A stretch of 64,000 nt of DNA from Mugil cephalus (taxonomy: Eukaryota; Chordata; Actinopteri; Mugiliformes; Mugilidae), in NCBI RefSeq assembly GCF_022458985.1, contig NC_061781.1, positions 16,895,001 through 16,959,000 of the forward strand, in the 5' to 3' direction. This document shows positions 1 through 59,400 of the stretch, one piece after another; the stretch's first letter is position 1; each line of letters begins with the position of its first letter. The position numbers and the translations under genes are program-made. The notes under the pieces are model-generated. The model ran no database searches, was not told the origin of the DNA, and saw only the letters and a program-made list of their open reading frames with translations.

Positions 1-1087
1 AACCCTTAACATGAAGACTGTAGTTTCTGGTTTCTTAATGTGTTCTTGTCTCTTCTGCCTCTCAGTCTGCTCTCCTCTCTCCTGATTTTCTTTGAAGAAA
101 CACTTTTATATCGTCAGAATCCAGGTGCATGTCACAACTTGCTGAGGTTTTATCTTGTCCCCATTCTTGTCTCATGACTTCCTGTTTTATTTTGAAATGT
201 AACTCTCCTCTCGTTTCAGGTCACTTCCTCTTCCCTTGTGTGTCACTGCTCTGTCTTCTCTGATTTCAGATCGTATCCACCTCTTCCCCATTACCCGTAT
301 GTGTGTCTATGTGAACACTGTGTATGAAGCTCAGGTCCAAGAGCAGAAGTATGAAAAAGTTATCAGAGAAGAACGTGGTGGAGGTCCAGAAAAAAACAAA
401 ATGTATTAGTGAACCATGACACATTTGAGTCTTTAGCGACATCTATTGGACAATGAAACAAACAAAACATGAAGAGCATAAAAAAAAAAAACATAAAATA
501 AACGTTGGTTATTTGGTTATTTTCCTCATTACAAGAACTATACACAGATGCATCATTTTCACATGTAATGAAATACTTTCTTTGTCTTGTACTTTGTGCT
601 TGTCAGCTCAGTGGACTCGACAGGTTTACAGGAGTCTCTCAGAGCTCATGATTGTTCTATACACCTCTAGCTCATTAAGCAGGTGTTCAGGTGGTTAGTA
701 ACAGCGCGACGAGTACAGTTTCCGTGCCTCACCGCTGCAAAATGACTTGGAGGGGGGTCTTAACACTTGAGGTGTTAAATACAGGATCAGAGTTTAGAGT
801 AAGAAGTTCAGCGTTAATATTTTAACATTTACACATTTAGACGTTTGATTTAGTGACACTTCCTTTTTACACTTGGTTTTGACAACAACTATTTATCGAC
901 TGAGAGTCTACCCAGAGTATAATTACCTCTACTAGTGTATTTCTAGTTTAACACCAAGAATTCAACTCTTCTCAGTTTGCTGTGCACGATGAACTGATTT
1001 CTGCATAAAATCAGATCAGATCATCGAAAGTATTTTTGTTTTTGTTTGAACTATGTGATGCATGTTGCAGAAATGATGAGCAAAACA
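1..1087. other. Left edge: presumed 3' flank of the decayed Ig copy
   Basis: No coding exon could be supported here. Bases about 4-26 are identical over 23 bases to 2056-2078, which overlaps the 3' end of the intact Ig gene at its polyadenylation signal. The pseudogene's duplicated unit may therefore end at the window edge. The rest is CT-rich or AT-rich unique-looking sequence. Confidence 0.4.
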
Positions 1088-1522
1088 CTGTCTAAGCCTC
1101 ATCTGTAAGTGACACTACATGAATAAAGTCCTGCATCTTCAGGTTGAGCACTGGAAATATTTTTAAAACTTTAAAATTCAGGATCTATTCTCAGTCTGTG
1201 AGAGGATACATTTGAAAACGTCTCATCTGACGTGATGTACTGTTTATAAATGAATCTTTTAAAGCTTCATTTCCGAAGCATTTTCTCTGGATATGTTGCA
1301 GTGGAACGTGACTGAGTCTCCTCTGGATACCAGCATATCCCTGTGGTCAGCTACTGAAGTCTCTAATATTGAAGAAAGCAATACAAATAGTCAGTTTAAC
1401 ATTTAATGATCAAATAAACCCAGAGAAAACAACATATGTACTGTATCTGTAAGGACATGACACAAAACCAGCAGCAGAGTGAAGAGCACAGCGGCTTGGT
1501 TTACACGAGATGTGGTGACCAT
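1088..1522 (-). pseudogene. Decayed sister copy of the Ig receptor (leader and V exon)
   Basis: The leader exon copy (1522-1447) still encodes a hydrophobic signal peptide, but its donor reads CAG|AT where the intact gene has CAG|GT. The V exon copy (about 1362-1088) keeps the first-cysteine region, a PEDAG-like segment and the second cysteine. It has lost about 16 bases around the core tryptophan, has in-frame stops, and breaks off before the normal exon end. The start of the TM-exon region is only faintly matched near 985-1015. This is a tandem-duplicate pseudogene on the same strand as the intact gene. Confidence 0.75.
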
Positions 1523-1594
1523 CAGACAGAGAAGGAGGGACTGGAACATTACCACGTGTTTTGAAATGTAGTGTGTATGTAGATGCAACAGAAA

Positions 1595-1606
1595 GGAAGT
1601 GGTTAG
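1595..1606 (-). promoter_or_regulatory. Second copy of the RUNX/ETS-like composite site
   Basis: This is the same 12-mer as at 6067-6078, placed about 73-84 bases upstream of the pseudogene leader ATG. It shows that the duplication included promoter sequence. Confidence 0.35.
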
Positions 1607-2076
1607 TTGCAGTTGAACAACAACATAACAACAACAAAAAAAAAATGAATGCGTAAGTCACACATCCATGTAAAATCTAATATGAATTATTGATGTAATG
1701 TTTGAGCTTGATTGAAAATAAACCGTGAGACTTATTTCTCGTCACTATAATCATATGATGAGCTGAAATATAAAATGCACCCCATGTTTCGCTGCAGGAA
1801 AACCTCCTCTCACGCTGAAGACACGTTGGCCTCAAGCTGTGAACACTGAGCATCCTTTACTTGTGTAACGTGCTGTACCCACAACGTGTGGCTCAGAGAA
1901 TTTAAAACACTTTGATGAGGCCTACGTCTGTTGACTTGAAGCAATTCTTAACATCTAATATTATATAGTTGTGTGTGACTGGCTTGAAATATGACGGACT
2001 CATGGGTTAGCTTTGACTTAACTTTATTTACACTATAACAACATTACAACTGTAACCTTAACATGAAGACTGTAGT

Positions 2077-2082
2077 TTTATT
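2077..2082 (-). terminator. Polyadenylation signal AATAAA of the Ig receptor
   Basis: An AATAAA hexamer on the minus strand lies about 115 bases past the proposed stop codon at 2197. A second TTTATT (plus-strand view) lies near 2025. The position fits a short 3' UTR and supports the exon 5 assignment. Confidence 0.45.
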
Positions 2083-2196: not shown

Positions 2197-2298
2197 CTAG
2201 TTGTCACCATAGATTGAATTCAGCCTCTCCATGTACTGACTCCTCCTCTTATTGTTTCTCCGCTGATCCGTGTTGTCTTCCTCTTGATTGTGTCCCTA

Positions 2299-2335
<37 letters not shown>

Positions 2336-2470
2336 TAAAGTTCTGTACAGCCTCTAATGCAGGAGAAAAGTACAATTAAAGTTGACAAAGCTCTTCTGAC
2401 CTCTTCTCTTGATCCAGATCGAGTCTGATCCGCGACCGGAAATGTTTGCGCTGCCCTCGACCTGTTTCTT
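2197..2470 (-). CDS. Receptor exons 4-5: cytoplasmic tail (inferred)
   Basis: Exon 4 (2470-2401, 70 nt) follows a CTTTGTAG acceptor. Joined in phase 2 it gives a basic start (RRNRSR) directly after the membrane helix. Exon 5 (2295-2197, 99 nt) joins in phase 0 and gives a polar tail ending in SIYGDN and TAG. Three independent phase constraints are met. Weak points are the TTA-repeat tract before exon 5 and the non-consensus GTCAGA donor of exon 4. Confidence 0.5.
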
Positions 2471-5400
2471 CTACAAAGACAAAGCAGCGACCAATAACGA
2501 CATTGTCCTAGTTAGTACAGAGACTGTGTAAGTATAAGCAAAATGAATAGAAGACACACTTCACTGCAGAGCATATAGTGGCTACAAACAACTGCTGACA
2601 ACGAAAGATACCGCTGGTTGTATTAGTCATTGTATAAGTAAAACCAATTGCTGGTTATATCATACATCAAATCATATCATGACTTGCACACACAAACGAC
2701 ACAGACTGTAAAATTACAGCAGCTTAAAAGAAAATAAAAGTACATGTTTTATCAAAGTGAATTTCAAGCCATTTGGTGACTCCTGTTAAACATCTGTCAT
2801 GGAGCCATACATCTGGCTTAAGTCTACTGTCAAATGTCAGTTTGAAGGACGTCTCACTGTTACATTCACAGATAGTTTCTCTGTGCATGAGTTCACAGTC
2901 CGTTTATGTTTTAGTCATTGGATTTTCCGTTCAGAAAAGGATGTTAAAAAACAATTAATTTTCATTGTAAAATTCAAAAATTAAGATTGAAATCTCTTTT
3001 AATTTTCTAAGTTTCTAAAAACAAAAAATAAAATCGTTAGAAGACAGAAAAGAAACAGAAAAGCGCCCGTTTTTTTCATATTGTGCGACCGGAAGTTGTC
3101 TTTTCCAAAGTAAGAGCATGTATGAGACGGGCGGTGCGTAACAGAAGTTGATGGACACGGATCAGTTCGTTGTTTTCCGAAACAATAAAAGAGTGTGTCT
3201 CTGGGACGACATGGCTTCAGAAAAACCGCATATTTCAAACTAAAATTAATTACATATAATCAGGGAATAGTTCGCTACAGTTAACATATGCATGCAGAGA
3301 TATCTGCTCTTACTTTGAAATCGGAAACTTCCGGTTGCAAAATACGGTTGCTTTTTAGATTCTGTCTTATAACGATTTTATTTTTTGTTTTTAGAAACAG
3401 AAATTAGAAAAAAAAAGACCGGTTTTAAAGTTTTGTTCATTCATTCTCGAACATGATAAAGAAAAATGTATCAAATTTAAATTTAAATTTTTGAATTAAA
3501 GAATGAAAATCAAATAACCACTCATTTTTTTTTTTTAATATCCCTTACTGATGGGAAAATCCAATGACCAAAACATAGACATTCACAAAGAAGTTGATTT
3601 TTATGCGGGTAACAGAAGTGGACTTAAACCCTATTTGTGGTTCTGCGTCTCTACTCTGCAGTGCAGTCTGACCTGCACCTTCCCAGAAATGACTACATTG
3701 TGATGCAAATTGCAAACAAGTGCGATAGGTCAGAAATCCATTTCCTTTTTCACATCTCGCAGTGGCCAGACACACAGAGAACATTTTATTTCCCTTCTGC
3801 TTCCTGACACCACTCTCTGATGTTGTCTGCTTACATTATGATATGCCAGTAGAGGTAACAGTTTACTTTGAGAATCTATTTTTGAAGCTCAAATCTAATG
3901 CAGTCGTCTGTCATTATCATCACGTATCCCTTTAAGGGCACTGGCTAAGTCACTGGCACTGGCGAAGCAGGTGTTTATTATGAAAAGAAAATCAGCACAA
4001 GGTGCATCATTTTGTTGTTCTTTAGCCTCTAACTGAAGTAAAAGTCAGTGGTGTTGTATTTGCATTGATATAGAACCATACTCAAAGCGCTTTACACTCA
4101 CAGTGACATAGCAACTCAAACGACTAACCTGGTCTGTCAACAACCCGCTCTACCCACTTAAACACGGCCCCGATGATAAAATACACTTCTGCTCATTTCA
4201 ATAATAGCGTCAACAGTCTTATTTGGTCTGCTATGACCAGTAGCTTATGGTCGACAACATCAGATAAGATGAAGACAGCAGTGCTCAAATGTTCCACTTT
4301 GTCTCCACAATTAAATGTCATGAATTTAACAGTGAAACAATTGTCCTGTGGAAGTCTGATAATGCTTTGGCATTTCAGAGACTGTTCTGAGTCCATTCAC
4401 TGACTTAATGCGTCAGCCACGGTTTCATTTTTACGTTTAACGTGTTGTAATTGCAAGTTGCAGCGACAGTGTGTGGTTCAGTTACACTAAATGCCAGAGG
4501 TGTAGCAAGGAAGGTACGATTCAAACGCAAGATGAACAACACAAAGTAAATTTGACAATGACTAAAAAAATAAAGAACAAAGAGGGATATAAATAGTGTA
4601 AACTCTTATAAACTCCTGATGGTTTAACGAGGCGCATGAGAAACTAATGATGCGAAGCACAAAATGGGACAACACAAAGTACTGGTAACTAAAAAAGTAA
4701 ATGAAAGCCACAACAATAAAAGTAAAAACAAAAAAACAGCCCATAACCCAAAATACAATTCATGGCACAAGAAATAAGAGTCTAATAATGTACTATACTA
4801 TACTATACTATACTATACTATACTATACTATACTATACTATACTATACTATACTATCTCTTAAACTCGACACATATTAAACACTCTGTTTAAGGCAACAA
4901 ATCAACCACTGAATTGAAGTTTTAAGAGTTAAAGTGGTTAAATTTTTTATTTCAACGAATTAACTGCTAGATGCTAAACTACGTTTTGCACAAACATTAG
5001 AAAACTTTGACACACGAAGATTGAAAAGTCCAGATTCAGAGTATAATGACATGAGTAATAAAACACTCGTTGTGTCCATGTGCAGTTCAGCACTCTACTC
5101 GACCAGTGACATGACACTGACAACAAAGAGACGAGTGCTTCCAGACTGCTGCACTATGTACTGTATGTCATCTAGGAAGGGACTAACAGCAACGTGCATA
5201 AACGTCCTAGGTTTTCAAAAAGTACAACACAAACTATGAATTTAGAAATTATTATTTGTAATTTTGCATAACACGTGCTATTAAGTGCACAGAAACGTAT
5301 TTGTTCATTATGAATCTGAAGCTGAAAGGCATCACTCACCTCCAGAGGCAGACAGCTGATGTGATGACACATAGAAGCAATAGAGTTGTAGATGTGAGTA

Positions 5401-5998
5401 CGTATGGTAAATATGATGAGCTGTTTTCTACATAAAATGAGATCAGAATTATATTTAAGTATTTTTTCAGTTTAAACTGTTTGAACTGTATGAAGCATGT
5501 TGCAGACATGATTTGCTGTGGTTTGCTCTGCTCTACCTACCTTTAATGTTCTCAGACACAGTTAAATTCCAGGAAACACTGTTTAAGCCTCGTCTGGAAG
5601 TTACACTACATGAATAAAGTCCTGCATCTTCAGGTTGAGCACTGAAAATATTTAACTTTAAAAGATCGATTTTCAGTCTGTCAGAGGATACATTTGAAAA
5701 CGTCTGATTTATCAGGACAGAATGTTTATAAATGAATCTTTTAAAGTTCCAGGTAATTTCCGAAGCATTTACTGTGGATACGTTGCAGTGGAACGTGACT
5801 GAGTCTCCTCTGGATACCAGCATATTCCTGTGCTCATCAGTTTCAAACCCTAAAGTTGAAAGGAAACAATGAACTGTGCACTTAAATCTGCATAAAAGCA
5901 TCACAAACACAAACCTCCTCTTTACCTGCAAAGACACGTCGCGCTAGCAGCACAATGAGGAGCAGAGCTGCTTGGTTTTGGCTGAACATCATGACCAT
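2197..5998 (-). CDS. Single-V-domain immunoglobulin-type membrane receptor, five exons (212 aa)
   Basis: Probable leukocyte surface receptor; ligand unknown. Exons on the minus strand: 5998-5926 (signal peptide), 5849-5541 (Ig V), 5427-5340 (transmembrane), 2470-2401 and 2295-2197 (cytoplasmic tail, stop TAG). All junctions are GT-AG and the phases 1, 1, 2, 0 join without a break. Residues 1-24 are a hydrophobic leader. The V domain (25-127) has Cys46, Trp58, and the D-x-G-x-Y-x-C motif ending at Cys105, with N-glycosylation sequons at 47, 52, 72, 77 and 119. The helix at about 134-156 has no charged residue and is followed by a basic RRNRSR stop-transfer. The tail has Tyr201 and Tyr209 but no consensus ITIM or ITAM. 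Exons 1-3 are well supported. Exons 4-5 are inferred from phase, splice sites and composition, and exon 5 has a poor polypyrimidine tract made of a TTA repeat. The start at 5998 is the first ATG directly before the hydrophobic core. Exact family membership (NITR, CD300-like, other) is not decided. Confidence 0.72.
2299..2332. repeat. (AAT)n microsatellite
   Basis: About eleven AAT units lie directly upstream (minus-strand sense) of the proposed last exon of the Ig receptor. They form its unusual acceptor tract. Confidence 0.85.
2902..3580. repeat. Long imperfect inverted repeat (fold-back element)
   Basis: The left arm (2902-3119) is matched by the reverse complement of the right arm (3305-3580) around a spacer of about 185 bases. 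Outer ends pair as GTTTATGTTTTAGTCATTGG against GTCTATGTTTTGGTCATTGG. Inner ends pair around ATGCTCTTACTTTG. The right arm has about 58 extra bases. The element lies in the third intron of the Ig receptor. No target-site duplication or transposase was seen. Confidence 0.75.
4055..4170. repeat. Degenerate interspersed repeat tail (CAAAGCGCTTTACA type)
   Basis: It contains a TATAGAACC...CTCAAAGCGCTTTACACTC block, common at the ends of dispersed fish repeats. A related block occurs at 51821-51865. The class is not resolved. Confidence 0.35.
4791..4856. repeat. (TACTA)n pentanucleotide microsatellite
   Basis: Thirteen near-perfect 5-bp units run from 4791 to 4856 inside the third intron of the Ig receptor. 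Confidence 0.95.
5340..5427 (-). CDS. Receptor exon 3: transmembrane segment
   Basis: This exon of 88 nt follows a TATGTAG acceptor and ends at an excellent GGAG|GTGAGT donor. It encodes a short serine-rich stalk, then about 22 hydrophobic residues rich in Leu, Val, Thr and Ile. There is no Lys or Arg inside the helix, so pairing with a charged adaptor such as DAP12 is not indicated. Confidence 0.75.
5541..5849 (-). CDS. Receptor exon 2: Ig V-type domain
   Basis: This 309-nt phase 1-1 exon is typical of Ig-superfamily domain exons. It encodes a V-type domain with the first-strand cysteine (HCNVS), the core tryptophan (ITW) and the PEDAGLYSC signature of the second cysteine. The acceptor is TTTAG at 5850 and the donor is AAAG|GTAGGT. 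Domain identity is very secure. Confidence 0.88.
5926..5998 (-). CDS. Receptor exon 1: signal peptide
   Basis: It encodes a leader of 24 residues with a leucine/isoleucine/valine core and ends in a split glycine codon at a CAG|GTAAAG donor (phase 1). An open frame continues upstream to 6133, but the homologous upstream segment in the sister copy differs, so the ATG at 5998 is preferred. Confidence 0.7.
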
Positions 5999-6066
5999 CA
6001 GACAGAGAATGACACTCTGGAACTTTGCCGTCGGCTCTAAACATAAATGTGGAGGCGCTGAGAAAA

Positions 6067-6078
6067 GGAAGTGGTTAG
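6067..6078 (-). promoter_or_regulatory. RUNX/ETS-like composite site upstream of the Ig receptor
   Basis: The minus strand reads CTAACCACTTCC, a RUNX-type AACCAC core joined to an ETS-type TTCC core, about 70 bases upstream of the start codon. The same 12-mer stands at 1595-1606, at the same spacing upstream of the decayed sister copy. Such composites are known from leukocyte promoters. The role here is inferred. Confidence 0.4.
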
Positions 6079-6199
6079 TTGCTGTTTTGCTAAGCTCTGA
6101 GCTAATGCATATGTCACGCCTTTTAAAGAACATATTACTAAATCATGCAAGAATCATATTTTTCAGTTCAGCGTGGAGTTGTTGAGCCAAAGGAAGTGA

Positions 6200-28500: not shown

Positions 28501-31500
28501 TTGAATTTAAGCCGACTTCGTGATCCAACCCTGGCCATCGCTGATATGGCACGACTGTCACGGAACAAGAGTACAGCAACAACCGGGAAACATTCATTCA
28601 AATCGAGAAACAATGAGGCTTTTTATCCCACTGGTGATGAAAATTTAACGACTGAGCCACACCTACAAGTGGTTTCCGGTTAATTGTCCCCTAAATATTT
28701 CTTGATTCTGTGAAGCAAATGAAATGAGATGTTTGTGTTGTTTTTTTTTTCTTTGAGTTCCATATGGAAGTATTGCATGTCACACTTAAGCAGTGTGGAC
28801 GTTTTCAGCGCCTCCAGCTGCAAGCGCAACAGCGCCGCCCTGTGTGCGCAACCAGCTCAAACCGTAACAAGTGCGTCGTTTTGTTTTCCAGGAGCTGCAG
28901 AGCAAAAGCAAAGTGTGCGCCAACGTGTTCTGCGGGGCCGGCAGGGAGTGCGCCGTCAACGAGAAGGGGGAGCCCAGCTGTCTGTGCATAGAGGTGAGGG
29001 TTGGGTTCGTGAGGGACCTGCAGCTCAGTTATGAATAAATAAATAAATAAATCAGACAATGCCTTACAGTTGTCACCCTGCTTCTTTCCAGACCTGTAAG
29101 CCCCACAAGAGGTCAGTGTGTGGCAGCAATAGTAAGACCTACAGGAACCACTGCGAGCTCCACAGAGATGCTTGTCTGACTGGTCTGAAGATCCAAGTGG
29201 CCCACGATGGACACTGCCAGGGTAACAAGCGACAGCACGCAATTACATTATTTATTTATTTTATTGATTGTGAAATAGACAGTACAGATATGAACAAAGT
29301 GTGTGTGTGACTTTTTTTTGCAGATCTCTCACTATCATCAGACCAGTCATAAAGCTAGTTTGTGTATTAGCACCCACATTCCTATTGTGTGTGATCCAGT
29401 GCAGGTTAGAAGCTCTGATACTATTATCTGACTTCACGGTTATAACGTCTTCTGCCTTTCTTCTGTCTCTAAACTACGACGCGATCACATTTCATCAGGC
29501 CGAACTTTAACCCCGAAGACGCTCTAAAACCTGGTTTGCAGAAGAAATGAAGTCTGCCTGGCACTGTTTATTTAAACCAAGAGATTTGGCTCATCCGACA
29601 AGCGCTGATAATCTGCGCGTGTCCGAGGTTAATTGAGCCGATTAGTAAATGATTTCTGAGCTAGCACATATTCAGGGACTGATAGCGCGAGGTGAATGGG
29701 TTGATAGTCAATCACGTAAGGTCAGGCGCTCGAGATTGCGCCGGACCAATCGGGCTGTTGGGTCCACGCCCCTGGACGTGACTCATCTATCGGAGCGCAC
29801 ATTTAATTTTAGTGTCTTATCCCGCATAAACTTTTGTTTGTCGCTCTCGGCGGCGTCACGCTCGTTGTGTCCCTGCCAGCATGAACGCTGATCAGTGGCA
29901 GAAGAGGTAGTCGAGGGTGGGGGAGGGGTGGGAGATCGTTTTATCACCGTGCCCTCTTTGCAGACCTTTGCTCAGTCACAGCCACGATTTTTTCCATTAA
30001 TCTGAATTAAAGCATTTGAATTGATTTGAACTGAAATGTCATATTCTTTTTCTCGTTTTTAACCATCTTTAGAGAAGAAAACTGAGCAAGTCGCTGCCAG
30101 CCCAGGTGAGTTGTGCGTGCATTCGTGTGCACGCTTCCCATCATCGCATGTATATGCATTTATGTTCTGAGCACTAAAAGTGTTTGCAGTATTTGCAAAA
30201 TAAGTTTTTAAAAAAAAACAAAAAAACATCAGTTTTATTTTTAGGTTATATTTAGATTGAGGTCATAATTCGAAGATCGTTGGTTAGATTAGGTAATTTG
30301 GCTGCTATATGTATTCCATGACTTTTTTATGGCCTCATGGACGTAATGAACCTGGACATTCTGGCATATGCTCAACAGGGCATGGGTCAATTGTAAAACT
30401 AAAAGCTCTAAAGATAGATTTTATTTGATTCTTTCTTGATGCCGTTGACCTTTGGAACCGTTCCCACCCCTGCAGTGGTGTGCTACGCTGCTGACCGCAA
30501 TGAGCTGAGGAGTCGCGTGATCCAGTGGCTGCAAACGGAGGTCGTTCCAGACGGCTGGTTCGCCAAGGGGACCAACTTCTCCGACACCCTGCTCAGATAC
30601 TTCAAGGTGGGGCGTCTTTTCTCTGTCGCCACGCAGAGAGACAGAATGTCTGTATTAGGTCCATAAATCTTAAGCCATTCTTTCCACACAAATGCCTCCT
30701 CCACGCTTCCCGACCCTGAAAGCTACCTCAGTCTGCGTCTTATTATTCCTCTGACAGGCCTTTCAAGCGATCCCTGTTCTGTGCAGGGAGCACCCCTGCC
30801 TCGCTCCAGATGGTTCTTTGAAAAAAAATATAAAAGTGTCTTTATTTGTCTGATCTTGTGCATCATGAAAATGTGCTGTACACGAGTGTTTCTCACTGAT
30901 AACTTTATATAACATCTCTTGAGTGTTCTCGCTTCGTCTGTCCTGCGCAAACACATTACACGGTCGTACAATGGTTGAATTATCTGAAAGCTTCAGAAAA
31001 ATATGCTGTTTCAAAAACCTGTTAAGTCGCCCTGCAGAGGCAGAATCGCAAAGCCCATACACAAGATTATTATGCTATAGTATAGATTATTATAGTATTT
31101 GACTGTATGTGGGAAAAATCCCTATATGAATAGAATTTTACATGCTGTAATGCACCGTCCTCCTAATTTTTAATTATATAATTATTATTTTTATAATAAA
31201 TGCTGGAGGGCATTGAAATCACTTGATATTAGAATTACGAGATGGTTGTCATGGTAAATAGTGTGCTCTTGGTATTTTTCATGCAAATTTGCTAATAGCC
31301 CGGACTGGCCTGTCTCTCGGGCACCACCAGTGACTAATTCCAGAGTAAAGCTTCCTCTATGCACAGACACAAACTGATTAAAATTTAATGTGAGATAAAG
31401 TGAAATCTTAGTCTTAAATGTTGTACAGTCCGGATACACTAACTGCCTTTGCTGGTTTTTAATTCCGTGTCTCTGCAGTCGTACGACAACGGTGATTCTC

Positions 31501-38600: not shown

Positions 38601-38900
38601 ACGGAAGCAGAAAATCTCACTCTAAGAACGGCTTCATTGTAGGGACGCTGCAGCAATCTGTGTAGTTTAATGTAGGCTGTCGTCAGTACCAAGCCAGAGA
38701 CCTACTTTTCTTTTTCTTTTCTTTTCTTTCTTTTTAGTAGAGATGCTGTTAAATATTACCGGCAGGTATGTAGACACATGTCCGCAAGCCGTCAATAAGT
38801 CTTGGAGCTAACACGCGCTTGCACTTAACAGCGGAAAAACTTCTGGCCGGGATTTTCGCACAGTGCGTTTTAATTTCACGCTAAAAAAAAAACTGCCAAC

Positions 38901-41900
38901 ATGGAGATCCACGAAGGGGCAGCGGCGGTCGGCGAAGGCGTGCTCGACTTTTCCCACTTGAGTTTGAACACTTTGAACGTTGACAATGTCAGCAACGAGA
39001 GGAAGAGGGACACCAGGCAGCTCTACCTGAACTACAACCGACTCCACTCGCTGCCCTCGTCGCTCGGCGTTTTCTGCAACCTCGAGTTTTTGGACATCAG
39101 CAACAACGGACTGTCGGCCATCTGCGAGGGCGTTACGAGGCTGACCAAGCTGAAAACTCTCCTCGCCAAGAACAACCGGCTGGACGAGTTCTCGCTGCCC
39201 AAGGACTTTGGTTCCCTGCCCCTGGAGGTGTTGAACTTCAGCGGGAACCGATTTGAGGAGATTCCGCTCCAGTGCACGAAACTGCTGCGTCTACAGTCGC
39301 TTTCACTGGGTGGGAACAGACTGAAAAGTATCCCAGCGGAGATAGAAAACCTCACCTGGTATGTTAACGTCACAGGGCAACAAAACTAATCACCACCGGA
39401 CTCATGGGTTGTAGTAATGATACTTCATCCTCCGAGTTCAGACGAATTCTGAGTTACTATGAATGAGTATGTTTCATAATTGCATAGCCAAACCAATTAG
39501 ACAAGAAAAAAATTTAAAAATTGTTAAAGTTTTCCTTTTCTGTGCAAGGCAGTAAAACTGAGTGCTTGAGCAGCATTTATCGTCCCGATAATTATTTTTT
39601 AAAACCAGTCAATAGCACAGAAACTCGGGGAGAACCTTTTACCACCCAGTGGTTCCTAACAGCTAATTAAGAGACAAAAAATAAGCTGCACATTAATAAT
39701 ATTGACACTACCTTGATCACATTAAAGCTGCATCCTGGGACTGTTTTCTCCCCCTTCTGGTCAAAAGAGTAATTACGCAAACACTGTTGACCATGCGTAG
39801 GATTCATTCAGATTCAGGCACCTTTATTAATCCCACCAGGGGCAATTGGTTTGGATTTGGCTTGCATACTGTTACACAATACACATACGATAAGAACAGT
39901 TAAAGCAGAATTTAAAAAAAGAACAGAAAAAAAAGCAGAATGGAGCAAGTAAAATGCCAAGGAACACAGTGGAATCACTGGTTAATAAATAGATAAAACT
40001 GTACTAAAATAACTTAAAAGCGCCCGGATAAAAAAAAGATTATATAGAATTTAAGAGACAAATAGCACAGAGAATAAAAGGTTTTAAAAGGTAGAGCATA
40101 CCAATGACCAGAGGGCAACAGAGAAAGTTAACTGGCAGTCACAGGAGAAGACAAAATTTGTTTGCTTTCCTGAGCGTTTATTACAAAAGCTGGCCATGTC
40201 CCTAAACTTCACTCCTGTGATCTTGGAACATGTTTTTGTAATGTTGTGCAAGCTTTTTTTTTTTTTTTATCTCTCAACATAAGGCTGGGAAACCAGCAGA
40301 TGAGATGTATACTTTGTACCTCTGGAAAACCCCCGATTTGTTGTTGTTGACATAGCCTATGATGAGTTTTTACAAATAAAAACTCGTACATGAGCAGTAA
40401 GGTGACTTGACCTTTGTGTCTGGCCTCGGCATCTTCCCTTTGTCCAGCACCTAGAAGCATCAGAAGCTTTTCACCGACACTTCTTTTGTTTACACCTAGT
40501 AGTCTAATGCTTTCAGCATCTATCCACTTGCATCATGTGTCAATTTCCGGTAAGTTTATTGTGTTATTATCATGAGTCATGGTGTGTGCACAATTACTGT
40601 GTGCACAAGTTGTTCTAGTAACTATCCGGGATTGGTGTCAGAGCTATGCAAAGACATTCAGTAGTGTCAGGACATCAGCAGTGTACATTTGAAACAGATT
40701 TATTTTCGTAGTAATATATATTCCTTAACTCCGTAACATTATATTAACACCAGATCACAGACAGTTACACACTCACAGTGTTAATTAAACACAGAAAGAA
40801 CGTTACTCGTGACGAAGTAACACTGGGTGCAAACTTCAAAACAGACTTTTATAGGCTGAGTGGACTATAGAGGAGAAGCAGAAAAAGGAGGACACTATCT
40901 GCGACTTGTCACGGTGACCCAGCGTGAGGGCAAAGATCAGACCTTCCCAACCATTTTATCATATACACTAGATAGTGAAGTGTGAAGAGGTAGAGGATAC
41001 CTGCCTCTTAAACTACCTCTTAATTTCTTATTCCATGTAGCCAATCATTAAATAAAATTAATAAATGTCAACATGAGTTTTGAGATTCATAGACAGATCT
41101 GTGTGAGACACTGGACTATGCCCCCGTTGCTCTTTGCAAAGTTGGTCAACTGTTACATGGCACAGACGCCAACAACATTTTCCACAAGTTCCCTAAATAG
41201 AGTGAGGTTTGGACGACTGGGCAGCTGGTGAAAGGTGTTTATCAAGCAGACAAGGCTTCATTGTGAAACATTTGGCTTGTGCAGCTTAAGTAGCTTAAAC
41301 AGTTAAAGAAAACTGTGCTGCTGGGCTGGCTTCCTAAGACTTTATTTACATAGAATTTAAAGTGTTGTTGAAAATGTTCCATTATGAGGCTACAGTGGTG
41401 GATAAAACTACATGTTGGCTACCCACAAATTCAGATGTGATGATAATATCTGAAACACCTCTAAATGATGCACTGTGGATTATTCAGGGGGTATTTTGTT
41501 TTATTTTGCATTGTTATGGTTCAGGCAAAATGGAATATAGATGGATAGATACTGTAAATGATTTGTCAATCACAGTAAAATTGTTTCCACAGTCCGTACA
41601 GCCACGAGAAAACTGTAGAATTTACTTAAAATAAAATGGTTTAACACAAAAAACAACTAATTAAACTTAAGAATACACCACTGCTTTTTTAATTAAGAGC
41701 CAAGTCTTTGCAGGCTTTTTTTTTTCTATTCTACTTTAAAGCACAAAGGCAACAACTGCTGTGTGCACTGTCGTGTTCCCACATCGGTTATCTAATCATG
41801 TACCTCCTTCAAAGTTTCCGCAGGCCTCTTCATGGTATAGACTCTTACTGGGACATTAGGAATCAAATGCTCTTACCAGTATTTTTACTACTTTTATTTT

Positions 41901-43801
41901 TGGCCAAAACATCTACTTAGGTAGATAGTTTGATTGTTTATAACTTGAAGTCCAAAACAAGAAAAGTGGACGAGATCTCCATTATATATTATCTGTCTAG
42001 AGAACAAATGTCAACCCTGTATTTTTCGGATAAAACTTCCCCCTAAAAATTTATTGTTAGCTTTGACAAGTGTTCCATATCGTCCCCGTAGCAGACCGTA
42101 ACTATCCTGTATCCGTCTCTGTCGGCTGATTTGTGTCTGTGTGGGCAGTTGGCAGACCCTCAGTGTCTCAGCTGCTGTCACAGAGGGGTTTGCTCGGAGC
42201 TCAGTCACCAAGGACGGCATAATGGCTCCGTGTCTCGCGGTCGCTGCGTCATCAGTTCCAGCAGGCAGATGGCCTGACGGCTTACTTTCGCTGACCAGCC
42301 ATCCGTAGCTCTGTCCCTGTGTCTCTCTCTCTGTCTCTGACTCCCAATTATGCCCCTGTGTGCTCCACACCGCCATTAAGCTACCGGGGTCATTTGTTGC
42401 CTTAATAGCACGGACGTGTGCAGACCGGTTTTACTAAAACTGGATACAGTGGAGCTCGGGTCGGCGTGTAAAATAATCTAGTTCAAAATCACTGGTGTCC
42501 TTTTTGCCTTTTTTATATTTTATAAAACGAGACTCAGTTTAAATAAACTCTTCAGCGTAACAATGTGCCTCTTTAGCGCCCCCTGTGGCATGCTTTACCT
42601 TTTTAATTTGGTGTCACTAAGCTTTGTTGGCTAAAATAATTTAACTTTACAGGATGTTTAGCATTAAAACATGATCACAGCTGTATCAAGTATGCACTGG
42701 AATTGTTGGATCTGAATCTAAAACAATCTTTGCTTGGTCACAGGTGTTTAGGTAAAGATTCAACAAGATGTCAGACATATTAAAATATTTTCATAATGGA
42801 AAATGTGTCTACATACTGCCATAAAAAGAACAGTTTAGATAGTCCATGTGTGAAAGGAAAAAGTAGTATCTTGATTCAGACCTGATTCTTGTGCCGTCTT
42901 GTCCCCACCGTCAGCTTGGAGTTGTTGTACCTGGGTGGGAACCTCATCGAAGCCATTCCTCCTGAAATAGCGAACCTACCCTACCTCAGCTACCTGGTCC
43001 TATGTGACAACCGCATCCAAAGTGTGCCACCACAGCTCACCAGGTAATAACGGCGCCCCGAATCCTTCACACTATCCTCAAAGATGACATCAAAGCTGGA
43101 TTACCTTGCATTGACCTGATAAGCTCATACTCTCATAGTCTTGATTTTCAAGGTGAAAACATTCTGAGTTGCCTCTGTGTCTTTTTTTTCTTTTTTCTAG
43201 GCTCCACTCGCTACGATCTTTAAGTCTCCACAACAACTTGCTCACTTACCTCCCCAGAGAGATCCTCAGCCTGGTTCACCTGCAGGAGCTCAGCCTTCGA
43301 GGCAACCCGCTGGTGGTGCGCTTTGTCAAGGAGATGACGTACGACCCCCCGTCGCTGCTGGAGCTGGCGGGTCGTACCGTTAAGAGCAGAAACATTCCTT
43401 ATTACCCCTCTGACCTTCCCGCCAACCTGCTACGATATCTGGATCTGGCCAGCAAGTGTCCCAACCCCAAGTGTGCCGGTGAGATTTCTTTTCGCTGTCA
43501 GTATTCGGGGCCTGCGTTTATGACGGTGGTTGAATTTGTAAAATATATGCTGCCTTGGTGGATATATTTGTCTGTACTGAATAATTTTCCCTCTTGACTT
43601 TCTCCAGGCGTGTACTTTGATTCGTGCGTGCGCCAGATCAAATTCGTGGACTTCTGTGGAAAGTATCGACTGCCTCTGATGCACTACCTGTGCTCCCCCG
43701 AGTGCACCTCCCCCTGCAGCTCCAACCCCCAGAGCGACGCCGAGTCCGAGGACGAGAACAGCGTGCCGGCCGACCGCCTCCAGAGGGTGCTTCTGGGATA
43801 G
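38901..43801 (+). CDS. lrrc58: Leucine-rich repeat-containing protein 58, four exons (352 aa)
   Basis: Intracellular LRR protein; a substrate-recruiting or scaffold role is likely but not shown by the sequence. Exons 38901-39358, 42915-43043, 43201-43478, 43608-43801 join in phases 2, 2, 1 with GT-AG borders. Nine or so LRRs run from about residue 45 to 235 (consensus LxxLxLxxNxLxxLP, with SLSLHNNLLTYLPREI highly conserved). Next comes the characteristic C-terminal domain with cysteine clusters (CPNPKC, VYFDSCVRQIKFVDFCGKY, HYLCSPEC), an acidic serine stretch (SDAESEDE) and the terminal VLLG. Human LRRC58 is slightly longer (371). Start ATG at 38901 follows AACTGCCAAC and precedes the only long frame. 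Confidence 0.96.
39359..42914 (+). other. lrrc58: lrrc58 intron 1 with repeats
   Basis: No exon supported. About 39803-40140 resembles a fish non-LTR retroelement tail (TTTATTAATCCCACCAGGGG; related sequence at 48968). A T-tract lies at 40254-40269 and a CT-rich run near 42318-42342. Confidence 0.4.
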
Positions 43802-53473: not shown

Positions 53474-56400
53474 GTAATCCATCTCCTTCTCAAAGTATGC
53501 ACATTATTACACATATATAAGTAAAATAATAAAGTGAATAATACAGCGAGACAACACATTTTTTGGGGAATTCAAGGCAGATATAAATGTAGAATTCAAG
53601 GCAGACATAGCCCAGATTGATCAGACACCCAAGCTTCATTAATATCATATTCACATTCCTAAATATAGTGCGCATGGTACACTCACTTGCCAAAACAAGT
53701 GTGAGGTGTTAGCTGGAGGATGTAGTTTGTGGTGCTGTTGAATTGGATGTCAGAAATAAACATGTGTCAGTACAACACAGTACAACTCAACACCGACCAC
53801 ATTAGGGTTCAAAACACAGTTGTATTAAAAGCTCTCTTCGTTATTTTTAACACACGCTGAAGACCGCGACCTACTCGAGCCTGAGATTTAGTGCAGGGCA
53901 GTTATACTAAACCGCACACACAATTGTAATATGCAAATCTAAAAAGGGTTAAAGGATCCAAATATATCCTTTGTAATCTACGTATAAATAAGTTCACGTG
54001 AATAAAGTATACTATTATAAATTGTTTTATTAGTGAGAAACACATTAATATAACTAGATTAATGAATGACATGACACAATTTAATAGAAGTTTCGATTTA
54101 CAAAAAAACAGCTTTTCTGTACTCGCCCACTGACGTTGCTGAACAAATAAAATACATCAAACGAGAACTTACTCGAAATGCGGTAATATTCCACTGGTGA
54201 GATCATTTGAATACTAGGAGATGAGAAAGGTTAAGGGGGATGGACTACTGAAGCTATGTTTAGTGTCTCACTCGCTGGTGCCTTTAAGAGAAGACTGAGC
54301 AACACCGTGAGACGTGCACCACAGAGTGTCATGTGACTTTCCGAATAGAAACTAAAGTCGTGGAGACCCCGCGTGAAGGAACACAAATGCAACTTTCTTT
54401 CCTGGCTGCACTGCACAGAAACGAGGTGAGTTATCTCTTTGATTTCTTTCATGCTGTATAATGTTAATTTATGCACAGATCAGTTTCAAAGAGGCGTCTG
54501 CATCTTCACCCAAGGGGGAAGAGATTAGTGAGTTTCCTTTGTTATCATTACCTAACAAGAGAGTGTATTAATGTATTGTGTTACTTTATTTTTACTGGCC
54601 TTACATTCCCTCTTCATGCTTGTATATTGAGCTCAGTGGACATGAAAACCGTCAAGATGAAATACCCTTTGATGAAATGTAACACCGTTCATTTGTTGCT
54701 ATTTGTAGAGGTGGGCAGCTTGCCATGCACAAGTGTTTCTAAGCCAACTAATACAGCGGAAAAAAACAAAAATAGAAGCAGTCTACTTATTTAGTTAAAA
54801 CCCACCTGTTTTCTGTCCGTGTGTGTTACCAGATATGGCTACTGCTGGCGGAGTGCTGTCTAAGGAGCAGCTTCTTTGCCCCATCTGTCTGGATGTCTTC
54901 AACCAACCAGTCTCCACACCTTGTGGGCACAACTTCTGCAAAGACTGCATACAAAGATACCTGCAGAGCGCTATTCTACCGCAGTGCCCAATGTGTAAGC
55001 ACAAGCTGTACACAAGGCCCGACCTCAAAGTTAACACGTTCATATCAGAGGTGACTTCCCAGTTTCGACAGCTAGTTGAGAGATCACATGAAAATGAAAC
55101 CAGCGTTTTGGATCAGTCAGTGGGCTGCAAGGGAGAAGTCTTGTGTGATGTTTGTGTTGGAAAAAGGGTCAAGGCTCTTAAATCCTGTCTGGATTGTTTG
55201 GCTTCGTTCTGCGAGACTCACCTGGAGCCCCATCACGTCCTAGGCACCTTAAAGACACACCACCTGATCAAGCCCATGATGAACATGCAAGACAGGCTAT
55301 GCAAGAAACATGAGAGGCTCCTGGATCTGTTCTGTGGCACCGACCAGATGCATGTGTGCCAGGCATGCGTTAGGAAAGACCACAAGGCTCATCAGACTGT
55401 CCGTATCGAGGACGTGAGCAGAGACAGGAGAGCCCAGATTGGAGGCATCAGCGCAGAAGTGGAAGAAATGATCCAAGGCCGGCTGCAGAAAATCTGTGAG
55501 ATCAATCAAACCGTTGAGCTCAGCAGAAGAAACGCAGAAAGGGAGATTGAAGAGAGTTTGCAAGTCTTCAACAAACTGCTCCAGTTCGTCCAGAGAGGCC
55601 GCGCTGAGGTGGCCGAGGTGATTGGCGCAAAGCAGAGGCAAGTGGAAAGCAGGGCCAACGGGGTTATCGCTGAGCTGGAGCTTGAGATTAATCAACTGAG
55701 GCACAGGAGTAAAGAACTGGAGGAGCTCTCAAACACTGAAGACGACCTCTTTCTTTTCCAGTGCTTTCCCGTTCTCTCCACAATTCCAGCCACCAAAGAT
55801 TGGTCTGACACCTGCGTAAATAGCGCCGAATACGTGGGGACCGTGAGGAGAGCGGTCCGGAGAGTCGCATCTCAACTGGAGGAGACGGTAAAGGCCGAGG
55901 TGAAGAGGCTTTGCGAGACTGAATTTCAGAGGGTGCGGCAATGCACCGTAGACGTTAATTTGGATCCCGACACGGCTCATCCCAAACTGGTGCTGTCTGA
56001 AAACAGGAAGGAGGTCTATCATGGAGAGGTGGCCCTGAACCTTCCTGACAATCCAGAGAGATTCTACCCCTGTGTTAGTGTTCTGGGAAAGGAGGGTTTC
56101 TCCTCTGGCAGGTTGTACTTTGAGGTCCAGGTGAAAGGGAAGACTGAGTGGGATATCGGAGTCGGGCTTGAGTCTGTGAACAGAAAAGGGGGGAATACGT
56201 TAAACCCCGAAAGAGGCTACTGGACTCTAGGGATGAGAGATGGTGGGAGTTACTGGGCACTCAGCAACCCTCCTGTCTGTCTGCCACTGGTCGAGGAGCC
56301 AGAGAGAATCGGGGTGTACGTGGATCTGGAGTGGGGGCAGGTTTCTTTTTATAATGCAGACTCGCACTCTCACATCTACACGTTCACTGGATACTCTTTC

Positions 56401-59400
56401 AATGAACGACTTTTCCCCTACTTTAACCCCCGGCGGAATCATGGCGGCGTCAACTCTGCCCCCCTCATCATTTCACCTGTCAGCATCTAAAATTTCAGAA
56501 CATTTGAGCAGTTGCTTAATGTGTTCGGCTATTTTCTAACTATCACTTTTGTTGTTGGATAAACAAATGTTGTTGAAACTGTGATAAGATTTTATGCTGT
56601 TTGCTTTAATAAAATTGTGTGTACTGAAAGGAACTACTCTTTGTGGTTGTTTTTGCACATTTGACATTTAAAACCAAACACATTACTTATGTAAATTTGG
56701 GTTAGGGTTAGGGTTAGGGCTAGGGCTACGACTAGGGCTAGGGCAAGGGCAAGGGTTAGTTGTGTTAGATTTTAAAGGATTTGCATGTGTGTGTGCATGT
56801 GTGTAGAAGTCGGTGGAGGTCCCGAGGCGTTCCCTCTCCCCAGTGCTGAGTGCGGTGGTGTGGACACTGCTCTCCTGTGGCATCCTGCTGGAGTTCTGCT
56901 TTCTCCTCTTCACGTTGCGCTTCAAAAACAACAGGTAGACCGAAACCTATGCACAAACTCACAGACGAATCGCAATTCACAGGAGCTAACCAATTCTCTG
57001 TATGTTATGTATCATCAGGATAGTGAAGATGTCCAGCCCCAACCTGAATGTCTTGACTCTTTTTGGAAGTGTCCTCACCTATAGCGCCGGCTTCCTGTTT
57101 GCCGTTGATGAACATTCCCAATCGTCCATAGCTTTGCTACAAGTAAGCACCCAAGTGACAGTCAATACTGCATGACAGTTTTGGGGTTGCTGATTTTCAG
57201 GTAACTTTAAATGTGATGGTCTCTCCTATAGGCTCGGGCGTGGACGCTTTGTGTCGGCAGTACTCTGGTGTTTGGGCCGATTCTAGGGAAGACATGGAGA
57301 CTGTACAGAGTGTTCACCCAGCGAGTCCCTGACAAGAGAGTGGTAGGCATGCTCCTCAGGCTTTGGGCAGTCCCATCTGTTTTCAGCATCCAAAGATCCA
57401 GTCTTTGAGCCATGAGTATTTTGGTTAACCAGCATCTTGTTCATTATATACAGTAAATTGTGTGGTATGCAACCTAAACTAGTACATTTCTTTGCAAATA
57501 TCCAAAATGATTTCATCTTGATTGGATTCAATTCTAACTTGACGTTCATGGTATTTGATACACAACTGAAAACTAACTGACCGACTACACTGAAAAATAC
57601 ATTAATGCAAAAAAAAAAAACTTAGTCCACTGTTCTTTTCTTTTTTTCTTTTTTTTATAGTATTTTTTTTTAAAAAAGATGTCATCCTCCTCCAAATCTG
57701 TAGTGAGATGTTTTCTTTTTCTTTTTGTTAGTCTGTCTTTTTTTTTTTTTTTTTTTTTTAAAAACATTTTGGGTCATGTTAGAAAATTCCTTTTCTGGAT
57801 ACTTCTTGACTTCAAAATGTGCTTTAAGCTCTCTGGGCATCACAGAAGCAACCGTTTCTGCAAACAATCCTGCTGTTATTGGTGTTATGACTCTTCCTAT
57901 ACCGTACTTACGTACTGATGCTGTTGTTCCGTTTCCCATCTTTATGAAATCTCCCAGGCTGGTGTCTTATTTGTTCCTTGCTCTTGGAGCCGTGTTTCTG
58001 TGCTTCATACTCAGAAATCTGTTCTGTTCTCTTGTTCTTTTCTAACCGGGTTACTGAAATTATGGCTTTATTTGAAAATGACATGTGTTGCAATAAGTTA
58101 AACTGACAGTTGTCGCATTGAAGTTGCAATGTGGTGCTTGCATTTTAAATGTAGTATGGTATTAAGAGCTATATTTCCACCAAATATATAATTGTAACAA
58201 TACACTTCAGAGTGTTTTTCTCTGCAATTTCTTGTAATAATTAGTTTTTTGTATGTAATTTTTTTTTTTAATGTGATTGGTGACTTTAGTTTCTGTTCCT
58301 CAGATCATCCGAGACATCCAACTGATGGGCATGGTGGCTCTGTTGATCCTGGTCGACATGCTCATCCTCACCATCTGGAGCCTCACAGACCCCGTCAGGT
58401 GTTCACGGTCTGTTGGAGCTGCTGTCAAGGTAGGATTTATTATTAATCAAGTTATGATTGAGCTTTGTTGCACTGCAGGTATTGAATATATCAACTCATA
58501 CTGGCATGTTCTGCCAATTATCAACTAATTGATAGTGTTTGCTCTCCTTGTTGTAGGTGATGGAGAGGGACATTTCCTACTCTTTGTCTCAGCTATACTC
58601 TTGTTCTTCTGCATACTCCAATCTATGGATCATAATTATTACTGTCCAGAAGGTAAAGTTATCTCTACTCAATCTCAGTTTTCACACAGTGTTTTAAAAA
58701 GGATGACCGCTTTAAGTTATCATTTCATAAAGTCACTCAATTTATACCATATTTTATGTGTTTTGTTTGCATTCAAAAATTACTTTATCTCAATGTAAAG
58801 ATGAAGTTTGTCTCTAAATTCACAATCCTTAGAACTGAATTCCCCAAACTTCCAAACATCCACCACCCATTTGAGCAGAACTAACATTAAAAAGTATATT
58901 AATTTCTTTTTAGGGTTGTCTTCTCCTGTATGGCACTTATCTGGCAGGACTAACCAGCAATGTGAGTCATCCCCCGGTCAACCAGTCTCCCACCATCATA
59001 ACAGCCGTCACTTTGGTCACCGTCTCTTCCGCTGTAGCCGTCCCTGTGTTTATCTTCCTGAAGGCCTGGCCCAACCTGATCTACACCGCCGTGGCTGGAG
59101 CCATCTTAATCTGCACGCTAGCTACTAACTGCATGCTATTTGTGCCTCAGGTAAGAAACTAGACAAATATGCAAGCTGCGTGAAAGAAATGATGAAACTG
59201 AGAAGTTTTAAGTTGGAGTTGGAGGAGGTGACACCTTCTGTTTGGTAGCATCGCAGAAAACCACAACTCAGAGGAACTACTTTTTAGTCAGAACTGTCAT
59301 GCAATAATTAAAAAAATGTGTCTGTAAACCAGCAGTAAATACAGGGAGTCATTCAGACAGATGGGAAGTGTACAGACAGATACATGACAAACAGACAGAT

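Follow-up and report, generated by a model that had tools for sequence, protein, structure and literature searches.

The window analysed here is a stretch of 64,000 nucleotides (nt) of the Mugil cephalus genome (assembly GCF_022458985.1, contig NC_061781.1, here C12:16895001-16959000; coordinates without prefix are those of the window). It carries a minus-strand five-exon gene (5998-2197) for a small immunoglobulin superfamily (IgSF) protein, which we call A_win and which an earlier note on this DNA had described as a complete receptor gene hidden by a 2.9-kb intron. A rebuild of the gene by script gave exons of 73, 309, 88, 70 and 99 nt with end phases 1, 1, 2, 0 and then the stop; every intron is GT-AG, and the coding length of 639 nt corresponds to 212 residues plus stop, in agreement with the structure and matching phases proposed in that note. 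The parts of the gene are as follows.

5926 to 5998, minus strand: exon 1, leader MVMMFSQNQAALLLIVLLARRVFA, from the ATG to the donor CAG/GTAAAG; near-identical leader in the other 10 gene models of the array described below
5541 to 5849, minus strand: exon 2, Ig domain of V or I type, phase 1-1, with a Pfam match and relatives on C12
5340 to 5427, minus strand: exon 3, transmembrane (TM) stretch without a charged residue, end phase 2
2401 to 2470, minus strand: exon 4, tail-1 (RRNRSR...), end phase 0; same exon at three other places of the array
2197 to 2295, minus strand: exon 5, tail-2, with the stop TAG at 2199-2197; exon recurs at three other places of the array
2023 to 2082, minus strand: two AATAAA signals (2082-2077 and 2028-2023), read by hand; the stretch 1980-2196 recurs in the array

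The leader and the TM stretch of A_win were assigned by reading the translated sequence. The predicted protein has a Cys-Trp-Cys Ig core, a leader and one TM stretch, all of which are marks of an IgSF type I receptor, and its ectodomain matches the Pfam models I-set (3.5e-9) and V-set (2.5e-8), both above cut-off. An earlier structure model was poor, with a predicted local distance difference test score (pLDDT) of 48; a model with a pLDDT of 72, built on an alignment of mixed Ig domains that partly steered the fold, gave Ig folds as its fold-search matches. We conclude that the ectodomain is an Ig domain. Six sequons lie N-terminal of the TM (residues 47, 52, 72, 77, 119 and 129), the number given previously, and a seventh (NRS, residue 159) lies within the tail. 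A search for immunoreceptor tyrosine-based inhibitory, switch and activation motifs (ITIM, ITSM and ITAM), for YxxM and YxN patterns and for TM charge found none of them in A_win; the tail has two tyrosines, both outside these patterns. The single V domain, the uncharged TM and the two tyrosines outside consensus were thus counted correctly in the earlier note, as was the distance of 115 bases from the stop to the first AATAAA.

We searched the genome (634.8 Mb, 24 contigs) for relatives of the individual exons; the counts cover scored candidates and are lower bounds. The V exon gave at least 26 matches, at least 24 of them pieces at C12:16.759-16.901 Mb, and the remaining two lie on C20 and C2 with 28 and 29% identity. 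The tail exons gave at least 10 matches, i.e. four copies of each exon, all in this array, and two weak matches (E 1.47 and 7.35). Counted over the array except for C12 16.776-16.820 Mb, there are 21 V places and 14 TM pieces, 12 of them full-length; both tail exons are present at four places, and A_win is the outermost member found. At the three other places, tail-1 and tail-2 are again paired in the same order, 94.8-97.8% alike over exon plus flanks, and the tail splice sites are intact in all four copies. That the distant tail exons are isolated chance exons was therefore rejected, since they recur as a pair within the array. Eleven gene models were rebuilt, each with one to three V domains (two V exons in B_847 and three in B_862) and together taking in 14 of the 21 V places; of the V places outside the models, three are disrupted, two are fragments, one is truncated and one is open but has no TM close behind it. 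In total, these searches show that A_win belongs to an IgSF family of tandem duplicates that was found on a single chromosome stretch. No published description of the C12 cluster was found in the literature searched.

The models differ in their tails. Four carry the tail of A_win (type A): A_win, A_871 and A_759 are open, and A_857 has stops in V and in tail-1. The other seven (B_847, B_893, B_768, B_844, B_862, B_874 and H_764) carry a different two-exon tail (type B), for which all 17 matches in the genome search were on C12; in H_764, an A-like TM is joined to the B tail exons. In B_847, B_893 and B_768 (3/7 B-tailed models), a phase-2 join between TM and tail opens a B tail of 51-52 residues carrying YQ[VG][LI] and YR[PT]I. 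In B_844, B_862, B_874 and H_764, the first B exon has 83 instead of 88 bases, and the tail comprises only 7-11 residues. At C12:16.840 Mb (L047:6235-6490), two B tail exons, the last of them altered, form an orphan pair; stretch L047 yielded no leader, V or TM beside them.

The B-tailed models bear on the possibility of a paired receptor system, in which the long B tails would inhibit or be endocytosed via YxxI/L, short-tailed copies with a TM arginine would activate through an adaptor, and the A copies would be a neutral third form. The two motifs of the long tails are consistent with it, as are the TM arginines present in two of the four short-tailed models (B_844 and B_862) and in none of the seven others, and a further TM with arginine in a copy outside the models at C12:16876758. 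However, 2/4 versus 0/7 gives P of about 0.11 and is not significant alone, the arginine positions differ between B_844 and B_862, and the Ala at -2 falls outside the ITIM pattern used. Moreover, because the short tails arise from the 5-base difference, they may be decay. We regard this system as improbable. The arginine-bearing TM stretches of B_844, B_862 and the unmodelled copy lie on L014, L022 and L028; the long-tailed copies differ from them in this respect.

V and TM relationships conflict across the array models. The four V exons nearest to that of A_win are all B-type (95.5-94.5%), while the TM nearest to its TM is that of A_871 (98.9%). We read this conflict as V exons probably having been exchanged among the genes of the array, and the cluster may have arisen by recent duplication together with such exchange. 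In this family, near-identical V ectodomains stand before different tails: A, YxxI/L-bearing B and cut B. The A_win product would be a type I leukocyte surface protein, and its ectodomain would bind the same kind of ligand as that of the B-type siblings; most likely, it would act at the surface as a receptor (or ligand) with a binding face in common with theirs. The A tail, with both tyrosines outside ITIM, ITAM and ITSM, would give weak or no ITIM-type signalling, and A_win might tune the response through a ligand common to it and the long-tailed members. With moderate confidence, we favour this account of A_win as a type I leukocyte surface protein from a tandem IgSF array.

Several observations weigh against this account. 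The ratio of nonsynonymous to synonymous substitution rates (dN/dS) of V is 1.08 over 91 pairs and, thus, purifying selection on V is not demonstrated. In favour of the account, a neutral simulation (4,000 trials) expects a stop in 5.7 of 14 V exons, and one was seen (P(<=1) 0.006), so that 13/14 modelled V exons have open frames; this test is limited to the 14 modelled V exons and favours intact copies because 7 of the 21 V places are excluded. For the A tail, the proportions of nonsynonymous and synonymous differences (pN/pS) in the phase-2 frame are 0.0267/0.0308, with no excess of silent changes, and lower ratios are found in the two alternative frames (0.0200/0.0584 and 0.0242/0.0395); one of these is open for 47 codons in A_win. 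The alternative A-tail frames were weighed, and none of the three frames has clear constraint. The tail exons vary at 11/169 columns versus 232/2,134 in the third intron (Fisher P 0.09), the 3' flank varies at only 7/215 columns, and the short intron between the A tail exons at 6/87. The third intron is 2,869 nt long in A_win, within a range of 2,422-2,926 nt for all four A copies, with a pairwise likeness of 93.0-96.1%; since it is nearly as alike as the tail exons, their recurrence reflects shared duplication more than constraint. For the B tail, the phase-2 join leads to an early stop in 4/7 models and B_874 has another frame open through both B exons, which leaves the working B frame unsettled. 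The phase-2 join is retained here, as it is dictated by the TM donor and opens the long B tail in three models, which is not proof. The case for coding use of the A tail comes from structure, phase and recurrence rather than from constraint.

The window copy itself has peculiarities, and further features lie within or beside it.

6059 to 6083, minus strand: last upstream stretch in common with the other models, which holds CACTTCCTTTTCTCA, placed by comparison by eye and by the ends of high-scoring segment pairs
2902 to 3580, no strand: imperfect palindromic stretch, about 680 bp long, within the third intron, with arms I1-I4
988 to 1614, minus strand: disrupted copy comprising a leader, a V interrupted by stops and by breaks of the frame, and the start of a TM (blastn/tblastn)
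585 to 664, minus strand: remnant of a B-type last tail exon (C12:16895585-16895664, 96% to B tail-2)

The TAG at 2199-2197 reads TGG in all three other A copies, so that the A_win stop looks derived; A_871 and A_759 read seven codons further (WVDKSLR). Upstream, the likeness of A_win to the other 10 models extends to about 85 bases before the ATG and is then lost, as compared by eye over 150 bases per model and with the high-scoring segment pair ending at C12:16901083. The stretch with CACTTCCTTTTCTCA resembles an ETS/PU.1 site. Because the upstream sequence differs from that of the siblings, A_win may be silent, a further point against a working receptor. The description of the gene as complete needs qualifying: the DNA supports a small Ig receptor gene whose third intron is long, but its stop looks derived and its upstream likeness ends shortly before the ATG.

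These observations are those that a decaying pseudogene at the edge of the array would leave, its distal promoter replaced and its tail shortened by a new stop. The disrupted neighbours at 988-1614 and elsewhere in the cluster, including two further disrupted V copies on C12, fit such decay, as do the orphan B tail in L047 with its altered last exon and the V dN/dS near 1. On the other hand, the leader, V, TM and tail frames of A_win are all open, its splice sites are canonical, and the new stop costs only seven residues. Decay is thus a possibility, but we think it unlikely.

The palindrome is possibly a miniature inverted-repeat transposable element (MITE); a gap of 377 columns common to A_871 and A_857 overlaps it (at about 3171-2801, located by hand). 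The third intron of A_win also spans an array of 13 TACTA units (4791-4856), and an ATT repeat (2301-2338) directly precedes the acceptor of the last exon. The B remnant at 585-664 was ruled out as a tail of A_win, since no first B tail exon was found there. Scanning the window with Rfam and for tRNA genes gave no hits.

In agreement with the earlier note, which recognised no named family, searches of solved structures and folds gave generic Ig matches (among the best 60, 60 and 50 listed) and no family name. NITRs, like the array, form a clustered and diverse teleost family with leader, V, TM, C1 and C2 exons in that order, and nearly all medaka members have a J or J-like motif (FGXGTXLXV) closing the V or I domain (PMC2442602); most NITRs have a tail ITIM and some have a positive TM charge. 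Catfish NITR10 is among the 50 fold matches listed for A_win; however, the array models are without an I domain, and FGxG and GxGT are absent from the 11 models (A_857 up to its stop), the looser TXLX(V/L/I) not having been searched. A_win has neither the tail ITIM nor the TM charge; its siblings B_844 and B_862 have the TM arginine. NILTs of salmonids and cyprinids resemble the array in having one or two V domains and a tandem cluster with pseudogenes, and they have extra cysteines as CX3C (or CX6C/CX7C) and intron phases 1,1,1,1,0 (PMC3022915). By contrast, A_win has phases 1,1,2,0, no separate connecting-peptide exon, no CX3C, only two cysteines in the ectodomain and no ITIM. Members of the CD28/CTLA4/PD-1 family have a single V domain, a TM, a short tail with tyrosines and a proline-rich motif in complementarity-determining region 3 (CDR3), with tail motifs that vary in teleosts (PMC11599192). 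A_win has the first three of these features, but it sits in a multi-copy array, its CDR3-like stretch YSCSVTSRRGLNS is without the proline motif (by eye), and its tail has no YxN or YxxM. CD300/pIgR-like V domains have a second disulphide, whereas the A_win ectodomain has two cysteines; JAM/JAML-like proteins have two Ig domains, whereas A_win has one V domain, JAML being one of many generic fold matches.

Members of the B7 family have a V followed by a C-type Ig domain, whereas in A_win and the other one-V models the V is followed by the TM. Nevertheless, among V domains detected elsewhere in the genome, the one closest to the array V is that of a B7-like gene on C20 (L050:3128-3466; reciprocal, 27-29% identity), the next exon of which matches a CD80-like C2-set model above cut-off. 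That exon has no counterpart in the array models. The neighbours of A_win in the window bear on the same point.

28868 to 29038 and 29047 to 29310: follistatin-like exons, with FOLN and Kazal domain matches, respectively; presumably FSTL1
38874 to 39389 and 43157 to 43597: pieces of a leucine-rich repeat (LRR) gene, which we take to be LRRC58
54799 to 56490: TRIM gene with RING, B-box, coiled coil and PRY-SPRY, 563 codons open in one frame
58277 to 59162: pieces of GPR156 (match 8.9e-27)

In NCBIfam, the TRIM frame had no match over cut-off and the GPR156-like frame had no match. FSTL1, LRRC58 and GPR156 lie together near CD80 in human 3q13. Both the C20 gene and these neighbours would fit an array descended from a V domain of CD80/CD86 type whose C domain was lost, with products that are ligands rather than receptors. 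However, 28% is a weak identity for two Ig V domains, the B tail resembles a signalling tail, and the 60 solved structures listed for the C20 second domain are mostly antibody- and MHC-like C domains with CD80 and CD86 not among them. A B7 origin therefore seems to us quite unlikely. Further V-set matches on C7 and C14, in two clusters (L001-L008), read by eye like Ig light-chain V genes.

Two near-identical V exons lie in the same C12 region at about 16.823 and 16.833 Mb (L048:6744-7121 and L049:3018-3395), some 68 to 78 kb from A_win. One of them was searched and matches Nectin-1 (7e-10), PVR and TIGIT. These PVR/nectin-like exons are in tandem, as is the array, but the array V is without their FPSGN stretch (by eye), and membership of the array in the PVR/nectin/TIGIT group is not supported. 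In total, the observation made in the earlier note is confirmed and its interpretation partly supported: the array is of a kind familiar from teleost receptors and has interesting differences between its tails, it matched no named family in the searches of solved structures and of this genome, and A_win itself may be silent.

Several IgSF receptor families occur as clusters in teleost genomes, and such families are common in fish. It is conceivable, but we consider it very unlikely, that the array is an undescribed teleost family in which near-identical and recently exchanged V domains, one to three to a protein, stand over at least three tail outcomes (YxxI/L, a cut tail that in some copies goes with a TM arginine, and motif-free A) and which, beside PVR/nectin-like genes, would be the fish counterpart of paired TIGIT/CD226-type systems. 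Comparison of duplicated copies can check tail exons that lie 2.9 kb away, and a further array with different tails behind one ectodomain would offer a natural setting for testing how receptors of activating, inhibitory and neutral type arise from one another.

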